From positions 1-64,000 of the forward strand of contig JAKARV010000007.1 of assembly GCA_021819205.1 (NCBI GenBank): DNA of 64,000 bases, read 5' to 3'. Position 1 is the stretch's first letter, and each line of letters begins with the position of its first letter. The position numbers and the translations under genes are program-made. The notes beneath the pieces were generated by a model that saw only the letters and a list, made by a program, of their open reading frames with translations, did no database searches and had not been told where the DNA came from. Source of the stretch: Actinomycetes bacterium. GTDB taxonomy: Bacteria; Actinomycetota; Acidimicrobiia; Acidimicrobiales; Acidimicrobiaceae. This document shows positions 50,088 through 64,000 of this stretch, one piece after another.

Positions 50088-52142
50088 TCACCGAGCAGCG
50101 GTCGAAACGAGGAAGGCAATGAGCTGCGCCTCTTCCTCCCATTCCTCAACTCGCTTGGTCGGCCCGAGGTGGCCCCCCTCGTCCTGGACCTTCAGCAGCG
50201 CACGCGCTCGCGGTTCGATCGAGCGGAGCTTGGCCAGCAGTTTGAGCGGTTCCCAGAAGCCGACGCGAGAGTCATTTAGCCCGGTAGTGAGGAACAGATC
50301 CGGATAGGCCACCCCCCGCTTGAGGTTATTGTACGGGGCATAGGAGGCGATCAACTTGGCGACCTCTTCCGACTCTGCCGGGTTCCCCCACTCCTCCCAT
50401 TCGGTGATCGTAAGCGGCAGCGAGGGGTCAAGCATGGTGGTAAGGCAGTCGACGAAGGGAACTTCGAGCACTGCGGCAGAGAAGCGCGTTGGTGACGCGT
50501 TCATCGCCGCGCCCACGGTGAGGCCGCCGGCACTTGCTCCGCGAAGGGCGATCTTCCCGGGGGCGGCCAATCGCATCTCCTCCAGCCGGTCGACACAGGC
50601 GAGCAGATCGGTGATCGAGTTGAGCTTTGACAGCTGCCGGCCCTGGTCGTACCAGCGGCGTCCGAACTCTCCTCCGCCGCGAACATGCGCAACAGCAAAG
50701 GCGAAGCCCCTGTCGAGCAGGGAGAGCCGGCTGATCGAGAAGGCGGGATCGACGGGCTCTTCGTAAGCTCCGTAGGCGTAGACCAGGGTCGGGGCGGGAA
50801 GGGGAAGATCCTTCCGCTTGACGATGCTTATCGGGATCGCGGTTCCGTCGGCCGCGGTTCCGAAGGTCCGCTGGGACTCGTAGTCATCGCTGTCGAAGGG
50901 TTCTCCAACCCGCTGCTGCCAGAGCAGAGTACGCGATCCGGAGGGTATCGAGTACCCATAGACCCTCGCCGGCACGGAGAGCGAGGTCACCTCGTATGTG
51001 ATTTCGGCGGACGCGTACTCCAGGTTCCCGGCGAGGTACTCGCCTTCGGCGGAGTCCGGGTTGCCGAGGGCGATTCTCTCTTCGCCCCGCCGCATCCAAG
51101 AGACCTTGGGGACTCCGGAGATCCGGGTCTGGAGCGCCATTCCGGCGCCGAACAGCTCGAAGGCTTCCAGAATCTCCGCCTCGGAAAGGATCGGAAGGGG
51201 TTTCCAACTCGCTCCGGCGTCAGCCGCGGTAAAAAGCGAGAAGTCGCCTCCACCTGGGTTGGCCATGATCACAAATCCGTCGTCTCCGTGGTCGAGCTGG
51301 TACTGGAGCCCCTCAATCCTTCGGGCGAAGCACCAGGGATCGCCCTCGGGGGCCTCCCCATCGATCAGCCAGCATTCGCTGGTCCGCTTGCTCTCCGCTG
51401 TGAGGGTCAGAAAACGGCGATCCTTGGTCCGGCCGACATCTAGAAAGTAACGCGCGTCGGCTTCGGCAAAGATGCACACGTCCGTCGCCGGATCGGTTCC
51501 GACCCGGTGGCGCATGACCGATGCCGGGCGCATGGTCTCGTCTGGAACCGTGTAAAAAAGGTGCTGCGAGTCGTTGGAGAAGACGAATCCGTAGGTCGTG
51601 GGGAAGATCCGCTCGTGCTCGATGGGACCGCTCGTCCCGATCTCCGCCACCGTAAGGGTGTAGCGCTCGGAGCCATCGCGGTCGATGCCAAAGGCGATGG
51701 TTGTCTCGTTGTCGGCGACCGCCACACCGCTCATGGCGAAGTAGCGAGAGTTGCCTGCCAGCCGGTTCTCGTCGACCACGAGCTGTTCCGGTACGCCGGG
51801 CTGGCGCCGCACCATTACCGGGTAGTCGAGGTGGGGCTCGATACGGGTGACGTAAGAGTAAGAGCCCCGCTTCAAGGGAAAGCTCTCGTCGGGCTCGGGC
51901 ACTCGCCTGCGGATTTCGGCTGCGATCTGGTTCGCCGGCTGCCGGAGGTTTTCGAGCACGATGTTCGAGTACTGGATCTCGTCATCAAGGTACTTCCGAG
52001 TCCGGGGATCCTCCAGATCGCGCAGTTGGTAGAAAGGATCTTCCTGCCTGCCGGCGAGGGTTGTCGTAATGACTGCTTCGAGCTCTGGTGGTTCCGGCGG
52101 CTTGCCGGCGGCGCTGAAAGGATCCTGCGGTATGTTGCTCAC
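50088..52142 (-). CDS. ptrB: Oligopeptidase B (S9A prolyl oligopeptidase family)
   Basis: A 684-residue serine peptidase with an N-terminal beta-propeller and C-terminal alpha/beta hydrolase. Catalytic triad: Ser in ALRGASAGGLTVGAAMN (about 536), Asp in TTGLNDSRVGFWEP (about 626), His in DEGGHLGP (about 656); AHVRGGGEFGRRWYDQGR is the family signature. It cleaves small peptides after basic residues. GTG 52142 gives the normal length; the frame continues upstream across the sufB start without homology. No Shine-Dalgarno is seen, but TACACT lies 8 bp before GTG, so the mRNA may be leaderless. Divergent from sufB. Confidence 0.88.
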   Translation of the reverse strand: MSNIPQDPFSAAGKPPEPPELEAVITTTLAGRQEDPFYQLRDLEDPRTRKYLDDEIQYSNIVLENLRQPANQIAAEIRRRVPEPDESFPLKRGSYSYVTRIEPHLDYPVMVRRQPGVPEQLVVDENRLAGNSRYFAMSGVAVADNETTIAFGIDRDGSERYTLTVAEIGTSGPIEHERIFPTTYGFVFSNDSQHLFYTVPDETMRPASVMRHRVGTDPATDVCIFAEADARYFLDVGRTKDRRFLTLTAESKRTSECWLIDGEAPEGDPWCFARRIEGLQYQLDHGDDGFVIMANPGGGDFSLFTAADAGASWKPLPILSEAEILEAFELFGAGMALQTRISGVPKVSWMRRGEERIALGNPDSAEGEYLAGNLEYASAEITYEVTSLSVPARVYGYSIPSGSRTLLWQQRVGEPFDSDDYESQRTFGTAADGTAIPISIVKRKDLPLPAPTLVYAYGAYEEPVDPAFSISRLSLLDRGFAFAVAHVRGGGEFGRRWYDQGRQLSKLNSITDLLACVDRLEEMRLAAPGKIALRGASAGGLTVGAAMNASPTRFSAAVLEVPFVDCLTTMLDPSLPLTITEWEEWGNPAESEEVAKLIASYAPYNNLKRGVAYPDLFLTTGLNDSRVGFWEPLKLLAKLRSIEPRARALLKVQDEGGHLGPTKRVEEWEEEAQLIAFLVSTAAR

Positions 52143-52185
52143 GAGTTCAGAGTGTATGGTGTCCGGACTTTTTGTCGAGTAGTTA

Positions 52186-52197
52186 CTATGGATGTAG
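52186..52197. promoter_or_regulatory. Suf-type inverted repeat upstream of sufB (weak copy)
   Basis: CTATGGATGTAG, one mismatch from the CTAT-N4-ATAG repeat found upstream of sufD and the second sufC, followed by TGGAAATT where the others have GGYAAAAT. It lies 51 bp before the sufB ATG, in the divergent ptrB-sufB region. Confidence 0.45.
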
Positions 52198-52248
52198 TGG
52201 AAATTGTCCGGGCACGGGGCAGCAAGGCAAGTTAGGTGGGATTTCGGC

Positions 52249-53649
52249 ATGGCTTCTGTTGAACTCGATCTTGGCAAGTACAAGCTTGGCTGGGCGGATG
52301 CCCAAGAGTATGTATTCAAGCCCAAGAAGGGGCTCTCGCGCGAGATTGTCGAAGAGATGTCGGCGATCAAGGGAGAGCCGGAGTGGATGCGGGCGTTCAG
52401 GCTCAAGTCCTTGGATTTATTCTGGAAGAAGCCCATGGCGCCGTGGTTTGCGGTGAACATGCCGCAGCTCAACTTTGACGATATCTACTACTACATCAAG
52501 CCAACCGACCGTCAGGTGGACTCTTGGGAGGATCTCCCAGAGCAGATGAAGAAGACCTGGGACAAGTTGGGGATTCCCGAGGCGGAGCGCAAGTACCTTG
52601 CCGGCGTCACCGCCCAGTACGAGTCGGAGGTTGTCTACCACCGCAACCGCGAAGAGCTTTCGAAGCTTGGAGTGCTTTTTACCGACATGGACTCAGCCCT
52701 CCGGGAGTATCCGGATCTGGTTCGCAAGTACTTCGGCAGCGTTATTCCCCCGAACGACAACAAGTTTTCCGCGCTCAACTCGGCAGTCTGGTCGGGAGGA
52801 TCCTTCATTTACGTTCCCCCAGGGGTGAAGCTGGACATGCCTCTTCAGGCGTACTTCAGGATCAACGCGGAGAACATGGGCCAGTTTGAACGGACGTTGA
52901 TCATCGCCGACGAGGGCTCTCAGGTCCACTACATCGAGGGGTGCTCGGCCCCGGTCTACTCGACCGACTCGCTTCACTCCGCGGTGGTGGAGCTGATCGC
53001 CAAGCCGGGAGCCCGGATCACCTACACCACTATTCAGAACTGGTCTTCGAACGTCTATAACCTGGTGACCAAGCGAGCCCGGGCAGAGGCCGAGGCTAGG
53101 GTCGAGTGGATCGACGGCAATATCGGATCGCAGCTGACCATGAAGTACCCGTCGGTCTACCTCATGGGCCCGAAGGCTTCGGGTGAGGTGCTTTCGGTTG
53201 CTTACGCCGGCGCCGGCCAACACCAGGATGCCGGTGCGAAGATGATTCACGCCGCTCCGGAGACCTCATCGACCATCGTATCGAAGTCGATCTCCAAAGA
53301 CGGCGGAATCTCAACCTACCGCGGCTTGGTCCGCATCGATGAGGGCGCCAAGAACTCCAAGAGCTTTGTTCGTTGCGACGCGCTGCTCCTCGACGACCGA
53401 TCGATTTCGGAGACCAAGCCCTACATGGAGGTATCCGAGCGCAACTCATGGGTTGGCCATGAGGCAACGGTCTCAAAAGTCGGTGACGACCAGCTATTTT
53501 ACCTGATGAGCCGGGGGCTGTCGGAGGCCCAGGCAATGAGCCTGATCGTCAACGGATTCATTGAACCGGTTACCCGGACGTTGCCGATGGAGTACGCGGT
53601 CGAGTGGTCTCGGTTGATCGAGCTGCAGATGGACGGCTCGGTCGGCTAG
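52249..53649 (+). CDS. sufB: Fe-S cluster assembly scaffold SufB
   Basis: A 466-residue SufB, the scaffold that builds clusters with SufC and SufD. Typical segments: [106 protein letters not shown], and [27 protein letters not shown] with the conserved Cys. ATG 52249 has AGGTGGG upstream. It is separated from sufD and the rest of the suf genes by 5.6 kb of minus-strand genes, so it needs its own promoter. Confidence 0.95.
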
Positions 53650-53659
53650 CGGTGCCAGG

Positions 53660-54394
53660 CTACCTGGGTAGCGCCCTGAACGCCTCGACGGCCTCTTCGC
53701 TGCCGGTGGCGTCGATTTTACCGGCCGGCCGGTTCCAGCACATCAAGTAGAGGTCTACCACGGAGCCGGCGATCTCCGCGTCTGCTCCTTCGCCTCCTTT
53801 TACGGCGCTAAATGTCGTTGCGGAGAAGGCGAGTGTCCACTCCACGGGACGGTCGGTGGCACGAAGGTGGATGGTTTGGGCTTTCCCGTCGCCTTGGCTC
53901 GAGGTCCGGCTCGGGAGAAAGCTGGTAAAGAGTTCGTCCAGGCCATCTTCGGCCAGCTGTGGCGTGATTCCAAGCTCGCTCGGAGCGGGGTGGCCAGGGA
54001 CGGCGAGCGAGTAGTCGATCAGGTGGATGGCGACCTCGTGGGTAAGCCGGCGGATGATCCACTCTACCGTTTGGTTTTTTCCGGTCCAGTTCCACGCCGG
54101 ATCGCTTGGCTGCCTGGAAGCAAGCAGGTCGTAGACCTTCTCAAAGTTGAGCTGGAGCCAGCTGGACGGCAAGGTTCCGTTTGGCGCGGCGGCGACAAGA
54201 TCGCCTCGGTGGGGATTGGCGTTCTCGCGTACCCGGTACGCCATCAGCTGATACACCATCGCGAGGTGGTTGGATAGATCGGACGCGTGCCATCCGGGGC
54301 ACGTTGGGATCGCCGCCGAGGGATCCGAGATCGAAGCCATTTTGATCGCGGTTCGGGCAAGGTCCCGAAGTTGTGTTAACGGCCCGCTCGCCAT
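53660..54394 (-). CDS. DinB-like maleylpyruvate isomerase-family protein (TIGR03083 type)
   Basis: A 244-residue protein with the mycothiol-dependent maleylpyruvate isomerase N-terminal fold: IPTCPGWHASDLSNHLAMVYQ with a metal-ligand His, and IIRRLTHEVAIHLIDYSLA with further His ligands; the C-terminal part (SCP2-like) ends with a typical VVDLYLMCWNRP. Such proteins are mycothiol-linked transferases or isomerases of unknown substrate. Its start overlaps the sensor-kinase stop by 19 bp, so it is the last gene of that operon. Confidence 0.75.
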   Translation of the reverse strand: MASGPLTQLRDLARTAIKMASISDPSAAIPTCPGWHASDLSNHLAMVYQLMAYRVRENANPHRGDLVAAAPNGTLPSSWLQLNFEKVYDLLASRQPSDPAWNWTGKNQTVEWIIRRLTHEVAIHLIDYSLAVPGHPAPSELGITPQLAEDGLDELFTSFLPSRTSSQGDGKAQTIHLRATDRPVEWTLAFSATTFSAVKGGEGADAEIAGSVVDLYLMCWNRPAGKIDATGSEEAVEAFRALPR

Positions 54395-56007
54395 CTGGAT
54401 CCTCCTTGTGATCGCTTTGCGGGGAGTTTAGACGGCGTCTCCTCGTCCGGTGCGGCTTGTGATGGATCCTCTTCTTCGAGGACGAGGCGGGGGAGATCGA
54501 TTCCGAATGTCGCGCCTTGGTTCTCGCCCGGGGAGAAGGCCCAGGCAACGCCGCCGTGGGATCTGGCGATCGCGGCCACCAGCGCGAGGCCCAGCCCCGC
54601 GCCTCCTTTGGCTCGCGAGCGCGACTCATCAGACCGGTAGAAGCGCTCAAAAACCCGATCTAGCTGGTTCTGGTTCAAGCCTGGTCCGGAGTCGGTGACC
54701 ATGAGCCGGGTAATCTCGGAGTAATCGAGCATGCCTATCGTCTCGTCAACCCCTCCGAAGGCGTCTCCTGAGCCACCCCTGGCGTTGCGTGACCCCACCG
54801 GGGGCGGGGTTCCTTTGGGAAGGCACTCCAGCGTGATCCCTACCTTCGAGCCCGCCGGAGTGTGGGTTCTCACATTCGCCAACAGGTTGGCGAGAACCTG
54901 GGTTAGGCGGTGCTGGTCCCCGAGAACGAGCACCCCATCGGCGATCGAAGCCTCGAAGCGCCGCTCCGGCTCGACCGCTTGGGCATCCATGATCCCCTGG
55001 GAGACGAGGCCGGAGAGGTCGACCGGCGACAGGGTGAGCGGGCGATTCTGATCCATGCGCGCGAGAAGAAGAAGATCCTCGATCAGAGCGGCCATCCGGG
55101 TCGATTCTGATGAGATCCTCCCCATGGCCACCGAGACGCCGTCCTCGTCCGTGAGGGCACCTCGCAGATAGAGGTCGGCGTATCCTTTGATGCTGGTAAG
55201 CGGGGTGCGAAGCTCGTGGCTGACGTCGGCTATGAACTGCCGTAGCCGTTCTTGCGAAGTCTGCGAGTCGAGCAGGGCCAGCTGGAGCCGTTCCAACATA
55301 GTGTTCAACGACTCTGCCAGCGTCCTCACCTCTGCGGGGCCGTACGAGTCCACCTTGGCCTTGGCGTCGCCTACCGTCACCTCTTTGGCTTGAGTGCGCA
55401 TGCGTTCGAGCGGGGAGAGGCCGAGCCGGATCGAGGCAGTGGCGAGGACGCCTAGGCCGAGAATGACCCCGGCAGATACCAGGAGCTCGGCAAGTTCCAG
55501 CCGTCCGATGGTGTCGGAGACCGAGATCAGCGGGATTGCAAGCACCATAGTTCCGCCGTAGGCGGAGTAGGGCTCGGCGATGACCCGGTATGCGATGTCG
55601 CCTTGGCGGAGCGTCATCGCGCGGTTGATAGGTATCGACACTTTTTGCTGCCCGATCGGTCCGGAGGTCACGTTTGGCGGGAGGAGGGCGGGAGTCTGTG
55701 CACTGGAGAACTCCCCGGTAATCGAGGAGCCGTTGGCAAAGACGAACTCCCCGAAAGTTCCCGAAGGGAGAGCGAGAAGAGGCGCAGAGCCGAAATTGCC
55801 GACGTCGCCACCGCGGAGGATGACTAGCCGGGCCGCTGGTGCCACGTTGGACTCCAGCTGGGTGTCGATCCGGGAGATGAGGAAGGAGCGGAGCGCGGTT
55901 ACCGTGGCTACGTCGATCGCCGCGATGCCGACGAACAGGGATGCTAGCGTGATCAGCAGCAAGCGGTATCTAAGGGAGAGGCCGCTTAACCGCTGCGGCT
56001 TTCTCAT
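54376..56007 (-). CDS. Two-component sensor histidine kinase
   Basis: A 543-residue membrane kinase. TM1 YRLLLITLASLFVGIAAIDVATV, an about 140-residue extracytoplasmic sensor, TM2 AELLVSAGVILGLGVLATASI, HAMP, the H-box DVSHELRTPLTSIKGYADLYLRG, N-box VLANLLANVRTHTP, G-boxes VTDSGPGLNQNQ and GAGLGLALVAAIARSHGG. A Gly/Ser-rich insertion (around VGSRNARGGSGDAFGGVDET) separates the N- and G-boxes, and an acidic tail follows. ATG overlaps the response-regulator stop by 4 bp. With HtrA next door the set resembles mycobacterial MprAB-PepD. Confidence 0.9.
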   Translation of the reverse strand: MRKPQRLSGLSLRYRLLLITLASLFVGIAAIDVATVTALRSFLISRIDTQLESNVAPAARLVILRGGDVGNFGSAPLLALPSGTFGEFVFANGSSITGEFSSAQTPALLPPNVTSGPIGQQKVSIPINRAMTLRQGDIAYRVIAEPYSAYGGTMVLAIPLISVSDTIGRLELAELLVSAGVILGLGVLATASIRLGLSPLERMRTQAKEVTVGDAKAKVDSYGPAEVRTLAESLNTMLERLQLALLDSQTSQERLRQFIADVSHELRTPLTSIKGYADLYLRGALTDEDGVSVAMGRISSESTRMAALIEDLLLLARMDQNRPLTLSPVDLSGLVSQGIMDAQAVEPERRFEASIADGVLVLGDQHRLTQVLANLLANVRTHTPAGSKVGITLECLPKGTPPPVGSRNARGGSGDAFGGVDETIGMLDYSEITRLMVTDSGPGLNQNQLDRVFERFYRSDESRSRAKGGAGLGLALVAAIARSHGGVAWAFSPGENQGATFGIDLPRLVLEEEDPSQAAPDEETPSKLPAKRSQGGSRWRAGR

Positions 56008-56729
56008 CTGGAGCCAGTTTCCGCCGGTCTTAAGCTATAGCCGACGCCCCGAATCGTCCTAATCAAAGAGGCGCCGTGGGCATCGAGCTTCTTGCGCAGA
56101 TAGGAGATGTACGTCTCGACTATGTTGGCGTCGCCGTCAAAGTTGTAGTCCCAGACGTGCTCGAGGATCTGGGACTTGGAGACAACCTTGCCGGCGTTGA
56201 GCATTAGGAAGCGGAGCAGCTTGAATTCGGTCGCGGTGAGGTCTATCTGGTTGCCCGCACGGATCACCTCGTGGGTCTCGTCGTCGAGAATCAGATCGGC
56301 AAAGGTTAACCGGGTGGGAGCGTCAGAGGAGCCGTGCGAGCGCCGGAGGACCGCTTCGATCCGGGCGGTCAGCTCGGCAAGGGAGAACGGCTTGGTCAGG
56401 TAGTCGTCCGATCCCAGTCGCAGTCCTGCCACTCGGTCCTCAAGGGCATCCTTGGCCGTGAGGAAGAGGATGGGGGTGTCGTTCCGCTCCTCCCGCAGCC
56501 GCTTCAGAACTTGGAAGCCGTCAAGATCGGGCATCATAACGTCGAGCACGATCAAATCGGGCCGGAACGATTTGGCGCTCTCCAAGGCCTCTCGTCCGGA
56601 TGAGGCGATCGAGACTTGGTAGCCCTCGAAGCTCAAAGCCATCGAGAGGAGCTCGGTTATCGGGAGTTCGTCGTCGACGACCAGGACCCGCTCGTTCCGA
56701 GTTCGCTTTTGGGAGGAGGAAATGGGCAT
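56004..56729 (-). CDS. OmpR/PhoB-family response regulator
   Basis: A 241-residue regulator. Receiver domain with Asp19-Asp20, phospho-acceptor Asp63 (LIVLDVMMPDLDG) and Lys in LTKPFS; winged-helix effector with DLTATEFKLLRFLMLNAGKVVSKSQILEHVWDYNFDGDANIVETYISYLRKKL and RTIRGVGYSLR. It is co-transcribed with the sensor kinase (ATGA overlap) and lies 103 bp downstream of htrA on the same strand. Confidence 0.93.
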   Translation of the reverse strand: MPISSSQKRTRNERVLVVDDELPITELLSMALSFEGYQVSIASSGREALESAKSFRPDLIVLDVMMPDLDGFQVLKRLREERNDTPILFLTAKDALEDRVAGLRLGSDDYLTKPFSLAELTARIEAVLRRSHGSSDAPTRLTFADLILDDETHEVIRAGNQIDLTATEFKLLRFLMLNAGKVVSKSQILEHVWDYNFDGDANIVETYISYLRKKLDAHGASLIRTIRGVGYSLRPAETGSR

Positions 56730-56832
56730 CTATTGATCCAGTCCGTACTTGGTGGCCAGGGTATAGTCCTTTTGCCAGCTTACCGCTATCAGAGTGGCGC
56801 GTTGGCAAGTTAGGCCTTTTGCTCAGATCTCT

Positions 56833-58224
56833 TTAAGTGGCTGGCGCTGTCCCCAGCGTGACCGTGATCGTCGAAGTTCCGTTGGAGCTTTGGACCCCAA
56901 GCGTTACCGAGGTGCCCGGGGAGGAACTTTTGACGTCCTTTACGAGCGCGCTGGCGTCGGCAACTGCGGAGTTGTTGAACCTGTAGATTACATCTCCCGG
57001 ATTCAAGCCGGCCTGCGAAGCCGGCGATCCCGGATAGACGTAGTCGATGAGCGCGCCAGTCTCCGAAGACGGGTATCCGAGCTGACTGGCGGTCTGGGCG
57101 TTCAGCGTCTGGATGCCGACGCCGAGGAAAGCGCCGCTAGAGGCGGAGGTACCCGTGGAGCCGGGGCTGGTGTAAAAGTTCGGGTTCTTCTCAAGGTTCT
57201 TGATCACCGGCAGCACCGAGTCGATGGCCTCGGCAAATCCCAGACCCTGGGTACTTTCGCTTCCGGTCGAGGCGATTATCGCGGTATTCATTCCCACCAC
57301 CTGACCTGCGGCGTCGACCAGGGGCCCGCCGGAGTTTCCCGGATTGATCGGGGCATCCGTCTGAATCATGTCGGAGAGGTTCTCGGTCGATGTCGAAATG
57401 CCTCGATGGAGGGCGGAGACGATTCCGTCGGTCACCGTTGGCTGTCCCTGCAGGGCAAGGGCGTTCCCGATCGCTACCACTGGGTCACCCACCTGTAGCT
57501 GCTTGGACGAGCCGAAGGAGACCGTTGGGAGGTTGGACAGCCCTTCAATCTGGAGCAATGCGACATCGTGCGCCGGGTCGGTACCGATGACCTTGACGGG
57601 GTGCGGGTTTGACTGGTTGTAGAGCGTTGCCTGGATCGAAGTGGCGTTGGCGATTACATGGTTGTTGGTCAGGACGAGTCCGTTGGAGGAGATGATCATC
57701 CCGGTGCCCGCCGACTGGAACTGCGACTGCCCGAAGAACCCATTGGAGGTGGTACCTTGAGCGGTGATGTCCACCACCGCTGGCTCCACTTTCGCCAGGA
57801 TGGACGGGGTGTCGAGGCCGCCGCTCAGGGTTCCTCCTTGGAGCGTCGTGGGCGACGCTTTGACCTGCTTGATGACTACGGGAGTGGTGTTTGATCCGGC
57901 CACCTTCATTACCCCGAAGCTGGTTGCGAGGGCGACTACTGCCGAGACCGCGGCGGCGACGACTACGGTCGTCGGGGAGAAGCGGGAACTCTTCTTCCTC
58001 CCCTCGCCACCGGCGGTCGCCGTTGCCGGCTCCGAGACTGGGCGAACCCAGGTGATCTCCTCCTCGCCAACGGGACCAAAGCCGCCTCCCGCCGACCCCC
58101 CTCCGCCGTTATCGCTTCCGTAAGGTTCGCTTGCAGCTTCACCACTTGCTGGCCCGCCAGGAAGTGTCGGCTCATCAGCGGGGATCTGGCCGCTCTCATC
58201 GTTGACGTTTGCGTCATCGGTCAC
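56833..58224 (-). CDS. HtrA/DegP-type membrane serine protease with PDZ domain
   Basis: A 463-residue protease. The cytoplasmic N-terminus is acidic and Gly/Pro rich, one helix (TTVVVAAAVSAVVALATSFGVMKVA) anchors it, and the trypsin-like domain follows with catalytic His (LTNNHVIA, about 189), Asp (HDVALLQIEG, about 219) and Ser (PGNSGGPLVD, about 297). One PDZ domain ends the protein (GALIDYVYPGSPASQAGLNPGDVIYRFNN). This is the PepD/DegQ-like topology for extracytoplasmic quality control. GTG start with GAGAGGTG upstream. The neighbouring two-component system is the likely regulator. Confidence 0.92.
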   Translation of the reverse strand: MTDDANVNDESGQIPADEPTLPGGPASGEAASEPYGSDNGGGGSAGGGFGPVGEEEITWVRPVSEPATATAGGEGRKKSSRFSPTTVVVAAAVSAVVALATSFGVMKVAGSNTTPVVIKQVKASPTTLQGGTLSGGLDTPSILAKVEPAVVDITAQGTTSNGFFGQSQFQSAGTGMIISSNGLVLTNNHVIANATSIQATLYNQSNPHPVKVIGTDPAHDVALLQIEGLSNLPTVSFGSSKQLQVGDPVVAIGNALALQGQPTVTDGIVSALHRGISTSTENLSDMIQTDAPINPGNSGGPLVDAAGQVVGMNTAIIASTGSESTQGLGFAEAIDSVLPVIKNLEKNPNFYTSPGSTGTSASSGAFLGVGIQTLNAQTASQLGYPSSETGALIDYVYPGSPASQAGLNPGDVIYRFNNSAVADASALVKDVKSSSPGTSVTLGVQSSNGTSTITVTLGTAPAT

Positions 58225-58290
58225 TTGGCACCTCTCTTTGACTGGTTCTGCAAGTATTTTTCACCCCGAGGCTTTGAGCAACCTTAGGGG

Positions 58291-59067
58291 TTATATGGAA
58301 GTTTCGTGGAGGTGAACCCGGGCTTTCAGAAAGGTTGGGAGGGAGTTTTGGAAGCTCTCGGAGCCGATGAGGGCGGCGTTGATTTCGGCAACTTTTGCCA
58401 TCTTTGCCGGCAGAAGTTCCTTTCGCGAGGCTAGCAGGTGCTCCTTGAGCGCGAGCACCGCCGGCCGGGGGTTCGAAGCGATCTGTGCCGCCAAAGCGAA
58501 AGTGCCTTCTCGCAGGTCTTCGACGGTGTCGAAGACCTGGGTTACCAGGTTGAACGCGTTGGCTTCGCTTGCAGAGAAGGTCGTCCCGGCGAGGGCGATA
58601 TGAGCCAGCGCGGCCCGAGGCAGCACCTCTCCAAGCAGTTCCAAAGCTCCCAGGTCGGCCACCATCCCCAGTTTCACCTCTGGGAGGGAGAAGACCGCGT
58701 CACTGCTGCAGATCCGTATGTCACAGGCGGCAGCGAGGTTGAGCCCTCCGCCGATGCAGTGTCCATGGATCGCGGCGATGGTCGGCTTTTTGCAGAGGGC
58801 GAGCTTGATGAAACCGCTCTGCAGCCTGGTGATGGTTTCGACGGTGGCGCTGCTGGCGAGGTTCGGAGCCATGGATACTAGGTCGAGGCCGGACGAAAAG
58901 CTTCTTCCCGCCGCGTCAAGCACGATAACCCGGACGTGGTCATCGATTTCGAGACGCTCTACTGCTTTGGGGAGTTCGGCAAAGAACTCGGCGTCCATCG
59001 CGTTTAACTTCTCCGGCCTGGCAAGCTGTAGCCGCCCCACGCCCCCTTCGGCACTTGTCTTGATCAT
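58291..59067 (-). CDS. Enoyl-CoA hydratase/isomerase family protein
   Basis: A 258-residue crotonase. [26 protein letters not shown], the oxyanion segments [16 protein letters not shown] and [22 protein letters not shown], and [22 protein letters not shown]. The Glu of the P-x-x-KLG-x region and the Asp of VADLGAL suggest a delta3,delta2 or dienoyl-CoA isomerase-like arrangement. AAGGAG lies just before the ATG. It is 66 bp upstream of htrA on the same strand; whether they are co-transcribed is unclear. Divergent from sufD. Confidence 0.85.
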
Positions 59068-59158
59068 TGCGGTCTCCTTGCTCGGTGGTCAACAGCAATT
59101 ATTCTGTCTCGTGCGAGACCGAAATGCTAGGTAGCGAGTTAAGCAGCCGCTATTACTA

Positions 59159-59178
59159 CTATCGTGATAGGGTAAAAT
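59159..59178 (+). promoter_or_regulatory. Suf-type inverted repeat with -10 upstream of sufD
   Basis: CTATCGTGATAG (59159-59170), an inverted repeat CTAT-N4-ATAG, followed by GG-TAAAAT (59173-59178), a good -10. It lies 51 bp upstream of the presumed sufD GTG. The same arrangement recurs upstream of the second sufC. Confidence 0.65.
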
Positions 59179-59228
59179 GTAGATTTGCGCCCAGACAAGG
59201 CGCAGTGGTGGGCGATTAGGAGTTGTGG

Positions 59229-60419
59229 GTGAAGGTTTTGGGTGGAGAGGTAGCCTGGCAGCTTCCCGGTCGTAGCTCCGCTCGCGAGCTTGAGCTGGAA
59301 CGCCTCGAGGCGGCCAAGGAGTCCATGGAGGCGTGGCGCTACAGTCCCATCGAGGATCTGGACCTTGCGGCGTTTGGAGGCGTGGCAAAGGTTCCGGATG
59401 ACGAGGCGGTAGCCGCCGCTTTGGCGCGGCTTTCGAGTCTTGGTGGGGCGGACGCCGTCGTCGTCATCGGGGCCGGGAGGTTGGTCAAGGCGGAACCGGC
59501 CAGCTGGCTGGCGGTTGAGGAGGTTGGCGCTGCCGGCGAGTTGCTCAGGCAGGAGGAGGAGCCCTTCCTGTCGCTGGCGACCGTGCTCGCACCCGCGAGG
59601 GTCGAGATCAAGGTGGCCGGCAGCGAGACTGGGCGGCGTGTCGCAATAGTGATGGTGGATGACGGAGACGGCGATGCAAGCCACGGATGGCTGCGGGTGT
59701 CCTGCGAGGGCGATGTTACGGTGATGCTGCTCGCGGAGAGGCGTGGCACCTCACTAGGGATCGACGCCATCGAGTTTGAGGTGGGAAAGGGGAGCCGGAC
59801 GCAGTTTCGGTACTACGTCAACTCCTCGCCGCAATCGGTAGGCTTCGGACACCTCCGTTACCGCGTCCATCAGGACGCGGCTTTCGACGTCGTTGAGGTT
59901 GCATCGGGTACCGGCTATAGCCGACTCCGGACGGATGGGTTCCTCGTAGGTGCGGGCGCTAGCACTACGATCCGCAGCGCCTACGTGGCCGGAGCCAGAG
60001 AGACCGCCGAGTTTCGGACCTTTATCTGGCACGATGCCCCCAGGACCACCAGCGATCTCCTTTACAAGGGCGCAGCCTGCTCGAACGGTGTTTCGATCTA
60101 CTCCGGTCTCATTACCATCTCATCTGACGGATCTGGGTCAAAAGCCTTCCAGACCAACCGCAACCTTATCCTTTCTCCTGAGGCGCGTGCAGAGTCGGTG
60201 CCCAACTTGGAGATCAAGACCAGCGATGTCAGGTGTTCGCACGCCTCGACCGTGGGACCGATCGAGGAGGAGTTGCTGTTCTATCTCCAGTCCAAAGGAA
60301 TTGGCCGCGAAGAGGCCACTCGCGCGCTTGCCCGTGCTTTCTTTGCCGGAATGCAAGAGCTATCGGAGACGGAGTATGGCGAGATCGCTTCGGCTCTAGA
60401 CGCGAAGTGGGATCGGTGA
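59229..60419 (+). CDS. sufD: Fe-S cluster assembly protein SufD
   Basis: A 396-residue SufD, beta-helix partner of SufB. The N-terminal part (YSPIEDLDLAAF) is diverged, but the C-terminal core is clear: DAPRTTSDLLYKGAACSNGVSIYSGLITISSDGSGSKAFQTNRNLILSPEARAESVPNLEIKTSDVRCSHASTVGPIEEELLFYLQSKGIGREEATRALARAFF, with the H and D/E residues at the SufB interface. GTG 59229 is preferred because AGGAG lies 6 bp upstream; a TTG at 59223 is too close. First gene of the main suf cluster. Confidence 0.9.
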   Translation: MKVLGGEVAWQLPGRSSARELELERLEAAKESMEAWRYSPIEDLDLAAFGGVAKVPDDEAVAAALARLSSLGGADAVVVIGAGRLVKAEPASWLAVEEVGAAGELLRQEEEPFLSLATVLAPARVEIKVAGSETGRRVAIVMVDDGDGDASHGWLRVSCEGDVTVMLLAERRGTSLGIDAIEFEVGKGSRTQFRYYVNSSPQSVGFGHLRYRVHQDAAFDVVEVASGTGYSRLRTDGFLVGAGASTTIRSAYVAGARETAEFRTFIWHDAPRTTSDLLYKGAACSNGVSIYSGLITISSDGSGSKAFQTNRNLILSPEARAESVPNLEIKTSDVRCSHASTVGPIEEELLFYLQSKGIGREEATRALARAFFAGMQELSETEYGEIASALDAKWDR

Positions 60420-60730
60420 AGGTCTTCGTCGGCGTGTCCGCCGACTTTCCCGAGGGGGCCGCAGCCAAGGTCGAGGCGCTTGGGCGCTTGGTGGCGGTGG
60501 TGAGGATCGGTGGCGAGCTTTTCGCCATCGGGGACACCTGCAGCCATGCAAAATGTTCGCTTTCCGAGGGCGATATCCTGCTAGAGGAGCGCGAGATCGA
60601 GTGTTGGAAGCACGGCAGCACCTTCTCGCTGGTTGACGGAAAGCCGCAGTGTCTGCCGGCAACCGCGCCGGTTCCGGTCTACGTCATCCTCGAAGACGAC
60701 GGGAAGGTTTACGTGGAGGTAGAGGGTTGA
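60416..60730 (+). CDS. Rieske-type [2Fe-2S] ferredoxin
   Basis: A 104-residue Rieske domain. Cluster ligands Cys42 and His44 (DTCSHAKCSLSEGD) and Cys63 and His66 (IECWKHGSTFSL) follow the CxH-CxxH pattern, with the usual GEL-x-AIGD strand before them. Such small ferredoxins within actinobacterial suf operons are thought to supply electrons or serve as an acceptor for clusters; the exact role is unproven. GTG overlaps the sufD TGA by 4 bp. Confidence 0.92.
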   Translation: MKVFVGVSADFPEGAAAKVEALGRLVAVVRIGGELFAIGDTCSHAKCSLSEGDILLEEREIECWKHGSTFSLVDGKPQCLPATAPVPVYVILEDDGKVYVEVEG

Positions 60731-61455
60731 GCGCATTTCTCGAGGTCGACGGGCTTGCAGTCGAGATCGACTCCAAAGAGGTGTTGAAGGGGGTCTCGCT
60801 TGAGGTCGCGCCTGGAGAGACGGTAGCGATCATGGGGCCGAACGGTTCGGGCAAGTCGACACTGGTCTCCACCATCATGGGCAAGCCGGGATACCAGGTA
60901 ACCAGGGGAGATATCAGGGTAGAGGGCAAGTCGGTCTTGGGCGTGTCTACAGACGAGAGGAGCCGGATGGGCCTTGCGCTCATCTCCCAGTACCAGCCGG
61001 AGCTTCCCGGCCTTTCGCTTGAAGAGCTGATCGAGCTGGCCTTCGAGTCGCGGGGGATGGAGATAGGCGCGGTGAGAGAGCTGGTGTCTCAGGAGGCCAG
61101 CGCAATCGGATTCGACAGCAGGCTGCTCACCCGCTGGGTCAACGTCGATCTCTCCGGAGGCGAGCGGAAGAAGCTCGAAACGGTGTTGGCGGCGGCCATA
61201 CCCGGCCAGTTGGTGATTGGGGACGAGATCGACTCCGGTCTGGACGTCGATGCGCTCAAGCAGGTTGCTGCGCGGCTTCGCCGCCTCCGAGACGAGGTGG
61301 GCATGGCGTTGCTCTTGATAACCCACTATCCTCGGCTTCTTGCCGAGATCGCACCCGATCGGGTGGTGGTGCTCGCCGGCGGCGAGGTGGTTGCCCAAGG
61401 CGGCCGGGAGCTGGCAGTAGAGCTGGAACGTACCGGGTACGGGGCGTTGGAGTAG
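60727..61455 (+). CDS. sufC: SufC-like ABC ATPase, first (divergent) copy
   Basis: A 242-residue ABC ATPase of the SufC group. Walker A GPNGSGKST (37-45), Q-loop SQYQPELPGLSLEE, signature LSGGERKKLE, Walker B with DEIDSGLDVDALK and the switch His in LITHYPRLL. It ends with the SufC-like GRELAVELERTGYGALE. The signature (GERKK for GEKKR) and Walker B (LVIGDE) differ from canonical SufC, whereas the second copy 200 bp later is canonical. The TTG at 60727 overlaps the Rieske stop (TTGA). Confidence 0.85.
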   Translation: MSAFLEVDGLAVEIDSKEVLKGVSLEVAPGETVAIMGPNGSGKSTLVSTIMGKPGYQVTRGDIRVEGKSVLGVSTDERSRMGLALISQYQPELPGLSLEELIELAFESRGMEIGAVRELVSQEASAIGFDSRLLTRWVNVDLSGGERKKLETVLAAAIPGQLVIGDEIDSGLDVDALKQVAARLRRLRDEVGMALLLITHYPRLLAEIAPDRVVVLAGGEVVAQGGRELAVELERTGYGALE

Positions 61456-61615
61456 GCTTGCCGGATGCGGCATCTGTCGCCTTCCATTCCGGGGTGCTGC
61501 GCGGTGCACCCTTGTGGAGCGGGATCGTATCGGGAGCTCTGCCGGTGGAGCAGCACTAGAGTCGTGACAATGCGTTGCGCACTTTCCAGAGGCTGTAAAA
61601 CTGTGGCAATTTCAC

Positions 61616-61636
61616 CTATATTGATAGGGCAAAATC
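61616..61636 (+). promoter_or_regulatory. Suf-type inverted repeat with -10 upstream of second sufC
   Basis: CTATATTGATAG (61616-61627), CTAT-N4-ATAG, followed by GGCAAAAT (61628-61635) at the same spacing as upstream of sufD. It lies 30 bp before the GTG of the second sufC in the 202-bp gap after the first sufC. Confidence 0.65.
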
Positions 61637-61657
61637 TGTGCCCACTAGACTGGCCTG

Positions 61658-62425
61658 GTGAGCAATACGCAACCTCTTTTCGAAGCCGACGACCTCTGGG
61701 TTAGCGCGGGGGGATCGGAGATTCTCAAAGGGTTTTCGCTGACAGTTTTCCCCGGCGAACTCCACGTCATCATGGGGCCGAACGGTTCGGGCAAGTCGAG
61801 CTTTGCAAACGCCATCATGGGCAATACGGACTACCAGGTCGATAGGGGCGCCATCCGCTTCAAAGGAGCCGACATCGGCGAGCTTCCGGTTGACGAGCGA
61901 GCCAAGGAGGGTATTTTTCTTGCTTTCCAGTACCCCGAGGAGATCTCCGGCGTCTCGGTAATCCAGTTCCTTCGGCAGGCGCTCCAGGCCCGTCGCGGTG
62001 GGGATGTTTCGGTGCTGGAAGTAAGGTTTTCGCTGATCGAATGGCTCGAGAAGTTGGGTCTTGACCCGTCTTTTGCCAGCCGCCACCTCAACGAGGGCTT
62101 CTCGGGCGGCGAAAAAAAGCGAAACGAGATGATCCAGATGGCTTTGATGGAGCCAGAGTTTGCGATTCTCGACGAGACCGACTCGGGCCTTGACATCGAC
62201 TCGCTAAAGACCGTGGCCCGTAGCCTGGAGACTATCCGCGGTTCCCGGCCGGAGATGGGAACCGTCCTCATAACCCACTACCAGAGGATCCTTGACTTGC
62301 TGACGCCGACGGCGGTTCACATCGCCCTCGATGGCCGCATAGTCGAGTCCGGGGGGATGGAGTTGGCTGAGGAACTCGATCAGGAGGGGTACGGAAGATG
62401 GCGTCAACCATCAGGAGTGCGATGA
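61658..62425 (+). CDS. sufC: SufC ABC ATPase, second (canonical) copy
   Basis: A 255-residue SufC. Walker A GPNGSGKSS (40-48), Q-loop FQYPEEISGVSVIQFLR, signature GFSGGEKKRNEMIQMALMEPE, Walker B LDETDSGLDIDSLK, switch His in LITHYQRILD and the end GGMELAEELDQEGYGRW. This is the canonical SufC sequence pattern, the ATPase of the SufBC2D complex. Its own suf-type element lies upstream. The sufS ATG overlaps its stop (ATGA). Confidence 0.95.
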   Translation: MSNTQPLFEADDLWVSAGGSEILKGFSLTVFPGELHVIMGPNGSGKSSFANAIMGNTDYQVDRGAIRFKGADIGELPVDERAKEGIFLAFQYPEEISGVSVIQFLRQALQARRGGDVSVLEVRFSLIEWLEKLGLDPSFASRHLNEGFSGGEKKRNEMIQMALMEPEFAILDETDSGLDIDSLKTVARSLETIRGSRPEMGTVLITHYQRILDLLTPTAVHIALDGRIVESGGMELAEELDQEGYGRWRQPSGVR

Positions 62426-63663
62426 CCGCGGACACTTTGGATGTGCGGGTGATCCGGAAGGATTTCCCAATTTACCAGCAACCCTATGAAGACAAGCCCT
62501 TCATCTACCTGGACTCGGCGGCATCGTCTCAACGCCCGGAGCAGGTGATGCAGGCGATGGACGAGTACTATCGCCGTTTCCACTCCAACGTGCACCGTGG
62601 CGTGTACACGCTTGCCGAGGAGGCGACGGCAAGGTACGAGGCGGCGCGGGTGAAGGTGGGAAGGTTCTTAGGGGCCAAAGACCCATCTCGCGAAGTGGTC
62701 TTCACCAAGAACGCCACCGAGGCGTTCAACTTGGTGGCGCAGGGGTTGGGCAGGGTGCTACTCAACCAGGACTCGGTCATCGTGCTGACCGAGATGGAGC
62801 ATCACGCCAATTTGGTTCCCTGGCTAATTCTTCAGGAACAGATCGGCTTTACTATCCGGTACATCACCTTTGATTCGGACGGGTATCTTGTCCTTGACGA
62901 GCTGGATAGCATCCTTGATGGTGCAAGCCTTCTCGGCGTGACCATGATGTCCAATGTGTTGGGAACCGTGAATCCGATCGCTGAGCTAGCTGCAGCGGCC
63001 CACAGGCACGGCGCTCTTTTTCTCGCTGATGCCGCCCAGTTCGCTCCGCACTTCGAAGTGGACGTCAGTGGGCTCGATATCGATCTGCTCTGCCTGACTG
63101 GGCACAAGATGCTGGGTCCAACCGGGATTGGAGCGCTGTGGGCGCGTTCGGAGATCCTTGACCGAATGACGCCGTTCCTCGGTGGTGGCGATATGATCGC
63201 CGATGTCCGGCTCGACGGCTTTGTCGCGAGCGAGATACCCTACAAGTTCGAGGCCGGCACGCCGCCGATCGCCGAAGCGGTCGGCTGGGCCTCTGCCATC
63301 GACTATCTGGAGTCGGTGGGCATGGGCAGCCTCCGGGCACACGATCTGAAGCTGACCGAGTATGCGATTGCGAACCTAACCGGCTCTCTGGGCTCGGCTT
63401 TTAAGTTGTACGGGCCGAAGGTTGCCGCCGATCGCGGAGGTGTGGTCTCTTTCGACCTTGCCGGCGTCCATCCTCATGACGTGGCGCAGGTCCTCGATCA
63501 GCACGGCGTTTGCGTAAGGGCCGGGCACCACTGTGCAAAGCCGCTTATGCGCCAGATCGGCACCGCTGCGACTGCGAGAGCCTCTTTCTACCTCTACAAC
63601 GATGAGGCAGATATCGATGCTCTGGTCGCCGCGCTCGAAGATGCGTACGCGCTGTTCAACTAG
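62422..63663 (+). CDS. sufS: Cysteine desulfurase SufS
   Basis: A 413-residue group II cysteine desulfurase supplying sulfur as enzyme persulfide. YLDSAASSQRPEQVMQAMDEYYRRFHSNVHRGVYTLAEEAT, EMEHHANLVPW, ADAAQFAPHFEVDV, PLP-binding Lys in LCLTGHKMLGPTGIGALWA (about 229) and catalytic Cys in VRAGHHCAKPLM (about 370). I chose the ATG at 62422 (ATGA overlap with the preceding sufC stop, AGGAG upstream) over the ATG at 62398. Confidence 0.95.
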   Translation: MTADTLDVRVIRKDFPIYQQPYEDKPFIYLDSAASSQRPEQVMQAMDEYYRRFHSNVHRGVYTLAEEATARYEAARVKVGRFLGAKDPSREVVFTKNATEAFNLVAQGLGRVLLNQDSVIVLTEMEHHANLVPWLILQEQIGFTIRYITFDSDGYLVLDELDSILDGASLLGVTMMSNVLGTVNPIAELAAAAHRHGALFLADAAQFAPHFEVDVSGLDIDLLCLTGHKMLGPTGIGALWARSEILDRMTPFLGGGDMIADVRLDGFVASEIPYKFEAGTPPIAEAVGWASAIDYLESVGMGSLRAHDLKLTEYAIANLTGSLGSAFKLYGPKVAADRGGVVSFDLAGVHPHDVAQVLDQHGVCVRAGHHCAKPLMRQIGTAATARASFYLYNDEADIDALVAALEDAYALFN

Positions 63664-63673
63664 GGAGCGATAG

Positions 63674-64000
63674 ATGGCAGACTTGGACGATCTCTACCGG
63701 GAGATTATTCTCGACCACTACAAAAATCCGCGCAACTCGGGGTCGATCGAGTCGCCACCCGCGCTGGTCGAAGAGGGTTTCAACCCGCTCTGCGGAGACG
63801 AGGTGAAGCTATATTTGGTTATCGAGGATGACCGGATCGCCGATATTCGCATCTCCGGGCAGGGATGCTCGATCTCGCGTTCCTCGGCTTCGCTGATGTC
63901 GCAGGCGGTCAAGGGCAAGCCGATCTCCGAGGCATTCGACGTGCTTGCGCGCTTCCGCCGGATGATGGGGATTGATGGCGAGGAGTCGGGTGAGCCCGAG
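63674..64000 (+). CDS. sufU: SufU-type sulfurtransferase/scaffold (partial, runs off the end)
   Basis: The first 109 residues of a SufU/NifU-N-like zinc protein: LYREIILDHYKNPRNSGSIE, the ligand motif with Cys40 and Asp42 (FNPLCGDEV) and Cys65 (GQGCSISRSSASLMSQAVKGK). SufU accepts persulfide sulfur from SufS for transfer to SufBCD. It starts 10 bp after sufS; the third conserved Cys lies beyond the window edge. Confidence 0.93.
   Translation, partial: MADLDDLYREIILDHYKNPRNSGSIESPPALVEEGFNPLCGDEVKLYLVIEDDRIADIRISGQGCSISRSSASLMSQAVKGKPISEAFDVLARFRRMMGIDGEESGEPE

Follow-up and report, generated by a model that had tools for sequence, protein, structure and literature searches.

An imperfect palindrome of 28 bp that precedes the suf genes of this acidimicrobial genome is very likely the operator of a regulon for iron-sulfur (Fe-S) cluster homeostasis, bound by a dimer of a SufR-like protein. 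The element is a real, class-wide Fe-S operator, and good though indirect evidence, from comparison of proteins and sites, makes a diverged SufR homologue of the ArsR/HTH_20 type, with three invariant cysteines, the most likely regulator. The window, that is, the whole stretch of DNA analysed (64,000 nucleotides), carries three of these operators, and their positions are given in Table 1 together with those of the neighbouring genes.

A shared element before sufD and the second sufC gene had been proposed in a sequence-only reading of the window, and both strings have been found at the positions given there, exact to the letter. In the window, CTATNNNNATAGGGYAAAAT has two exact matches (chance expectation, 0.12 at three mismatches or fewer) and one additional reverse match with three mismatches, which is the opposite strand of the second site itself. 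Comparison with other genera of the same family, where the same element lies upstream of sufC2, sufB, and nfu, has shown that both elements are the cores of 28-bp palindromes of the form AWTT-N3-MCTAY-N4-RTAGK-N3-AAWT; a near-perfect palindrome is possible in G+C-rich relatives, for example GATTACCACTACGGCCGTAGTGGTAATC upstream of sufC2. The shared repeat therefore holds, but its description as CTAT-N4-ATAG plus a separate -10 box does not, because the 'AAAAT' (or 'TAAAAT') box is the right outer arm of the palindrome; likewise, the surroundings described as otherwise unrelated are in fact similar for about 8 bp to the left and right of the core, where the arms lie. The count of two was also incomplete, as a third operator is located before sufB, at the equivalent position in relatives and with 43 bp between its end and the sufB start. 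One operator precedes every suf transcription unit of the window (sufB; sufD–Rieske–sufC1; and sufC2–sufS–sufU). The sufD operator is kept in the same-genus genome G001 and is also found upstream of sufD in other genera, and the sufC2 operator has its counterpart upstream of sufC2 in seven sister-genus genomes and in most other Acidimicrobiia examined.

Table 1. Operators, putative promoter boxes and genes of the suf region, with positions in the window.
Feature	Positions	Strand	Remarks
Operator upstream of sufB	52178-52205	none	AGTAGTTACTATGGATGTAGTGGAAATT; weight-matrix score 23.7
sufB	52249-53649	+	Open reading frame; 85% identical over 466 aa to sister-genus SufB
Enoyl-CoA hydratase/isomerase family gene (ech)	58291-59067	-	Divergent from sufD, common operator region
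Operator between ech and sufD	59151-59178 (core 59159-59170)	none	TATTACTACTATCGTGATAGGGTAAAAT; weight-matrix score 29.7
Possible -10 box of sufD (TAGATT)	59180-59185	+	By inspection only; weak
sufD	59229-60419	+	GTG start, AGGAG upstream; best NCBIfam match TIGR01981
Rieske-type ferredoxin gene, sufD operon	60416-60730	+	Gene order same in relatives
sufC1, first SufC ATPase	60727-61455	+	TIGR01978, 237.9 bits, above cutoff
Operator upstream of sufC2	61608-61635 (core 61616-61627)	none	AATTTCACCTATATTGATAGGGCAAAAT; weight-matrix score 27.3
Probable -10 box of sufC2 (TAGACT)	61646-61651	+	6 nt upstream of the probably leaderless GTG (61658)
sufC2, second SufC ATPase	61658-62425	+	Heads sufC2–sufS–sufU; TIGR01978, 299 bits, above cutoff
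sufS, cysteine desulfurase	62398-63663	+	TIGR01979, above cutoff
sufU	63674-64000	+	Open reading frame, runs past window end; orthologues downstream of sufS in relatives

The genes served by these operators have been assigned from protein comparisons and from gene order in relatives; the match of SufD to TIGR01981 (180 bits, E 5.7e-53) is under the cutoff of that model (222). The paralogues sufC1 and sufC2, about 41% identical, belong to separate operons, one with sufD and the Rieske ferredoxin gene and the other with sufS and sufU, and the pair is present in most Acidimicrobiia examined. Two of the operators face divergent genes. In the case of sufD, the divergent order with ech is kept in G001, G004, G007, G016, and G025; in the case of sufB, the neighbour is a prolyl-oligopeptidase-like gene (50088-52472). 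Both arrangements recur in several genera, and the divergent genes may therefore be under the control of these operators as well.

A weight matrix built from 61 sites of other genomes, this genome excluded, separates the three sites (scores in Table 1) from the next best place of the window, which reaches 0.1, and from the best of 20 shuffled windows, which reaches 6.5. The genome-wide scan suggested in the sequence-only reading, carried out as pattern searches of the 2.13-Mb genome, has found CTATNNNNATAGG three times and no more, at the two suf sites and within the coding sequence of a transporter (C20:43499); the last of these has been taken as a chance match, and so has a 28-mer with one mismatch at C27:125957. 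An RNA element was also considered and was dropped, with no Rfam match in 51500-64000.

Enrichment of the palindrome is confined to the class. Across 198 genomes of the order, the 28-bp pattern has been located 267 times with one mismatch at most, and its reversed form 18 times. For 246 genomes sampled from the phylum, counts from the tabulated matches gave about 43 places versus 2 reversed inside the class, in 25 genomes, and about 73 versus 145 reversed outside it, that is, no enrichment outside Acidimicrobiia in this sample. The sites are also specific in their targets, as 29 of 30 loci picked by the pattern alone are directly upstream of sufR/mrp, sufB, sufC2, or sufD, and the odd one, at the edge of a contig, had been read with an incorrect offset. 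In a larger set of 135 distinct sites, which includes loci chosen for their suf genes, 130 lie directly before sufB (35), sufC2 (34), sufR/mrp (33), sufD (15), nfu (9), or an A-type carrier/mrp pair (4). Of the other five, three tell us something: the first, close to the end of a contig, is the sufD site of the same-genus genome, and the other two belong to a single genome, G391, where an operator is found upstream of an imelysin/di-haem oxidoreductase gene pair (L351:2607) and another between a ferritin gene and a solute-binding-protein transport operon (L353:2885). The gene content at these two sites suggests that in the G391 lineage the regulon has come to include iron homeostasis. In several genomes (loci L126, L189, L354, and L358) the operator occupies the spacer that mrp shares with a divergent gene for an A-type carrier of the ErpA/IscA family, instead of the sufR–mrp spacer. 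A site scoring 21.9 about 80 bp upstream of disA (c-di-AMP synthase) in G130 (L287:7183), a genome without Rrf2, may be due to chance.

That the likeness of the sites is a matter of chance, a reading favoured only by the few copies in this genome, can be given practically no weight: it is refuted by conservation, and also by the mismatch expectation, the pattern counts, the matrix scores, and the target list. A core-promoter or sigma-factor motif, instead of an operator, would explain why the element is near the promoter and why 'TAAAAT' resembles a -10 box. Against this, the element is palindromic, is used both ways between divergent genes, and is nearly absent from other genes of the genome; moreover, its distance to the start codon varies, from 36 to 64 bp in the window and 31 bp in the sister genus. 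This varying distance and the service to divergent genes point to a protein-binding site rather than to a promoter motif. At sufC2, CTAGACT-N6-GTG is kept in seven sister-genus genomes as in the window, although the gap between the element and TAGACT differs, so that TAGACT holds a fixed place before the GTG while the element shifts. Because of this conservation, TAGACT is likely to be the -10 box of sufC2 and its mRNA is probably leaderless. The overlap of the element with the -10 that had been proposed is thus not sustained, the conserved sufC2 box lying 10 bp further on, and a core-promoter motif is extremely improbable. Relative to the inferred start, the palindrome is centred at about -36 in the window and -31 in the sister genus, over the -35 and spacer, a position that would fit a repressor. 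The earlier suggestion of an operator common to suf transcription units is supported, and it is very probably one for an Fe-S-sensing repressor.

The candidate regulator comes from sites in the spacer that mrp, which encodes an Fe-S carrier ATPase, shares with a divergent gene for a regulator of the ArsR type, here called sufR-like. In this genome the gene is located on a contig other than that of the window (C27:64964-65608, minus strand), divergent from mrp. Sites are present in the sufR–mrp spacer of many genomes, and none has been found in that of this genome, so autoregulation is unsupported here. The N-terminal winged helix-turn-helix of the protein, of the ArsR/DeoR type, is matched by PF12840 (HTH_20) with 41 bits, above cutoff, and three C-terminal cysteines, aligned with those of Streptomyces SufR, are present in 46 of 46 SufR-like sequences. 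Profiles of the SufR-like proteins and Streptomyces SufR match with an hhalign probability of 96% (E 1.2e-9), and no solved structure matching the SufR-like profile has been found. On the other hand, TIGR02702, the curated SufR model, gives 26.8–36.7 bits for these proteins, under its cutoff of 178.8. Streptomyces SufR also falls below that cutoff, with 84.9 bits, which identifies TIGR02702 as a cyanobacterial model. The name SufR-like is used, and the proteins are not filed under TIGR02702, because neither the curated model nor the known operator is matched; the protein probably works like SufR.

The distribution of the gene follows that of the site. Among 198 genomes, a site is present in 115 of 142 with a strong SufR hit and in 15 of 56 without one (Fisher p 1.5e-12, a value that overstates the evidence, the genomes being related); permutation within families that show both states gives p 0.003, which is the fair value. 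In family f27, for example, both a strong SufR hit and sites are restricted to G144, and in family f57 G225 alone has both. In genus g33, G066 has both, whereas in G110, G143, and G170 SufR is absent and the number of matches does not exceed that of the reversed-pattern control. Exceptions occur in both directions. Some of the 27 genomes with a strong SufR hit and no strict site carry slightly different sites (G007 and the sister-genus G005), and some of the 15 with the opposite pattern are at chance level or are incomplete assemblies; in G194, whose suf sites are clear, SufR has not been detected in an assembly that is 85% complete.

An Rrf2- or ArsR-type regulator had been anticipated, and of the two only the ArsR type has stood up. 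An IscR-like Rrf2 protein, RrfA (G000:C50:41177-41644), was the first candidate, being near-universal and highly conserved in the order, with a match in 184 of 198 genomes, mostly 63–80% identical. It is apparently leaderless and has a YLEQ-type recognition helix and, in the sensor loop, two cysteines plus a conserved histidine; Rrf2 regulators that control Fe-S genes through long palindromes are well known. This candidate fell on genomes that carry sites in the absence of Rrf2 and on the lack of a site at its own gene: Rrf2 has not been detected in G225, G066, G194, and probably G130, so that three to four genomes have clear sites linked to suf and no Rrf2 (the canonical site of G130 is at its sufB, and those of the others are at their suf genes), and no site has been found upstream of rrfA in 30 genomes. 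Rrf2/IscR proteins are therefore not present wherever the operator is, whereas G225, G130, and G066 all have SufR. Co-occurrence of RrfA with the site is weak (Fisher p 0.067; 0.19 within families), and the site is missing from 34 of the 45 genomes that have RrfA and lack SufR. Binding of the palindrome by RrfA is thus quite improbable. A second Rrf2 protein, RrfB, was rejected too. In one genus its gene is followed by ppa and then by nfu with an operator, two genes away; its neighbour is a divergent gene for a NapH/NosR-like membrane ferredoxin (L006; L175–L179), and the motif belongs to nfu. Two further loci (L044:4962-5348 and L048:4855-5241) encode an RrfA-like Rrf2 without cysteines in the sensor loop, about 3 kb from sufC. 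The operators of Rrf2–suf operons in other phyla have shown no resemblance to the element. It might still be that some other protein binds the palindrome and that sufR is merely one of its targets, which would agree with the 15 genomes that have a site without a strong SufR hit and with the lack of a site at the sufR of this genome. This is unlikely, as the linkage to SufR, the co-occurrence, the contrasts within families, and the known role of SufR in suf control (PMC8593673) all agree with one another.

In the mechanism proposed for the SufR-like protein, a dimer with a winged helix and a C-terminal domain bearing the three invariant cysteines would sit on the 28-bp palindrome and, in this organism, would control sufB, sufD–Rieske–sufC1, and sufC2–sufS–sufU. 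At sufC2 the palindrome would span about -50 to -23 from the leaderless start, so that RNA polymerase would be blocked by the bound protein at the -35/spacer region. If it behaves as known SufR proteins do, the cluster-loaded form would repress and the cluster-free form would release the DNA, and a short supply of clusters would then switch on the assembly genes; DNA binding, cluster loading, and the direction of control are what we infer. A wider proposal can be made only tentatively, namely that a deeply diverged cluster-sensing SufR clade is the class-wide Fe-S master regulator of Acidimicrobiia, with a new 28-bp operator, a changed recognition helix, and a dispersed suf/nfu/mrp/A-type carrier regulon, extended in some lineages (G391) to iron uptake and ferritin storage, a role played elsewhere by IscR plus RirA/IdeR.

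No earlier description of this operator or regulon has been found in the literature searched. If a SufR relative binds it, as is most likely, both the type of operator and the set of genes would be new for SufR. Acidimicrobiia include acidophilic iron oxidisers as well as lineages that are abundant in the sea and in soil, and for the whole class a testable answer is offered, which names a regulator, an operator, and the target genes. The system is also a natural example of joint change in a regulator and its operator, and it offers an easy way to find more Fe-S or iron genes in uncultured relatives.

According to a review, two actinobacteria are the only ones with a described SufR, and for most Gram-positive bacteria it is unknown how suf is regulated (PMC8593673). 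In cyanobacteria and Streptomyces avermitilis, CAAC-N6-GTTG is the site bound by SufR, and suf is repressed by the holo form (PMC8593673, PMC11995493); in Mycobacterium tuberculosis SufR, C203, C216, and C244 are essential (PMC6034842) and correspond to the three cysteines found here. With the known proteins from these bacteria and Corynebacterium (PMC8593673, PMC11995493, PMC6034842), the acidimicrobial one shares the N-terminal winged helix, the three conserved C-terminal cysteines, and, as predicted from the sites, suf genes as targets and a site at sufR itself (here in many genomes). The operator cores are alike in width, 14 bp in CAAC-N6-GTTG and in MCTAY-N4-RTAGK, but not in sequence, the latter being flanked by AATT outer arms to a total of 28 bp, and the recognition helix differs accordingly (HPNVARHHLDKL here versus THAAVRRHLDAL in Streptomyces SufR). 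In fact, CAAC-N6-GTTG is absent from four promoter regions at one mismatch or fewer and from all 135 sites. The ACACT-N5-TGTGA site named in the sequence-only reading for actinobacterial SufR is likewise absent from these promoters, as had been observed; this mismatch had been taken as evidence against SufR, and yet the best candidate is a SufR homologue with a different site. Gene place and targets differ as well, since sufR adjoins mrp here, away from suf, and the targets are several dispersed units, among them nfu, mrp, an A-type carrier gene and also, in a single genome, genes for ferritin and transport. The system is like that of IscR and other Rrf2 regulators in the long palindromic operator at Fe-S assembly genes and in the dispersed regulon, but their protein family is unrelated, and sites occur here in genomes without detectable Rrf2. 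Finally, RirA and IdeR are iron regulators, and the likeness to them lies in G391, where genes for ferritin, imelysin, and binding-protein transport have sites upstream as well; their operator is different, and the main targets of the acidimicrobial system are the Fe-S assembly genes.
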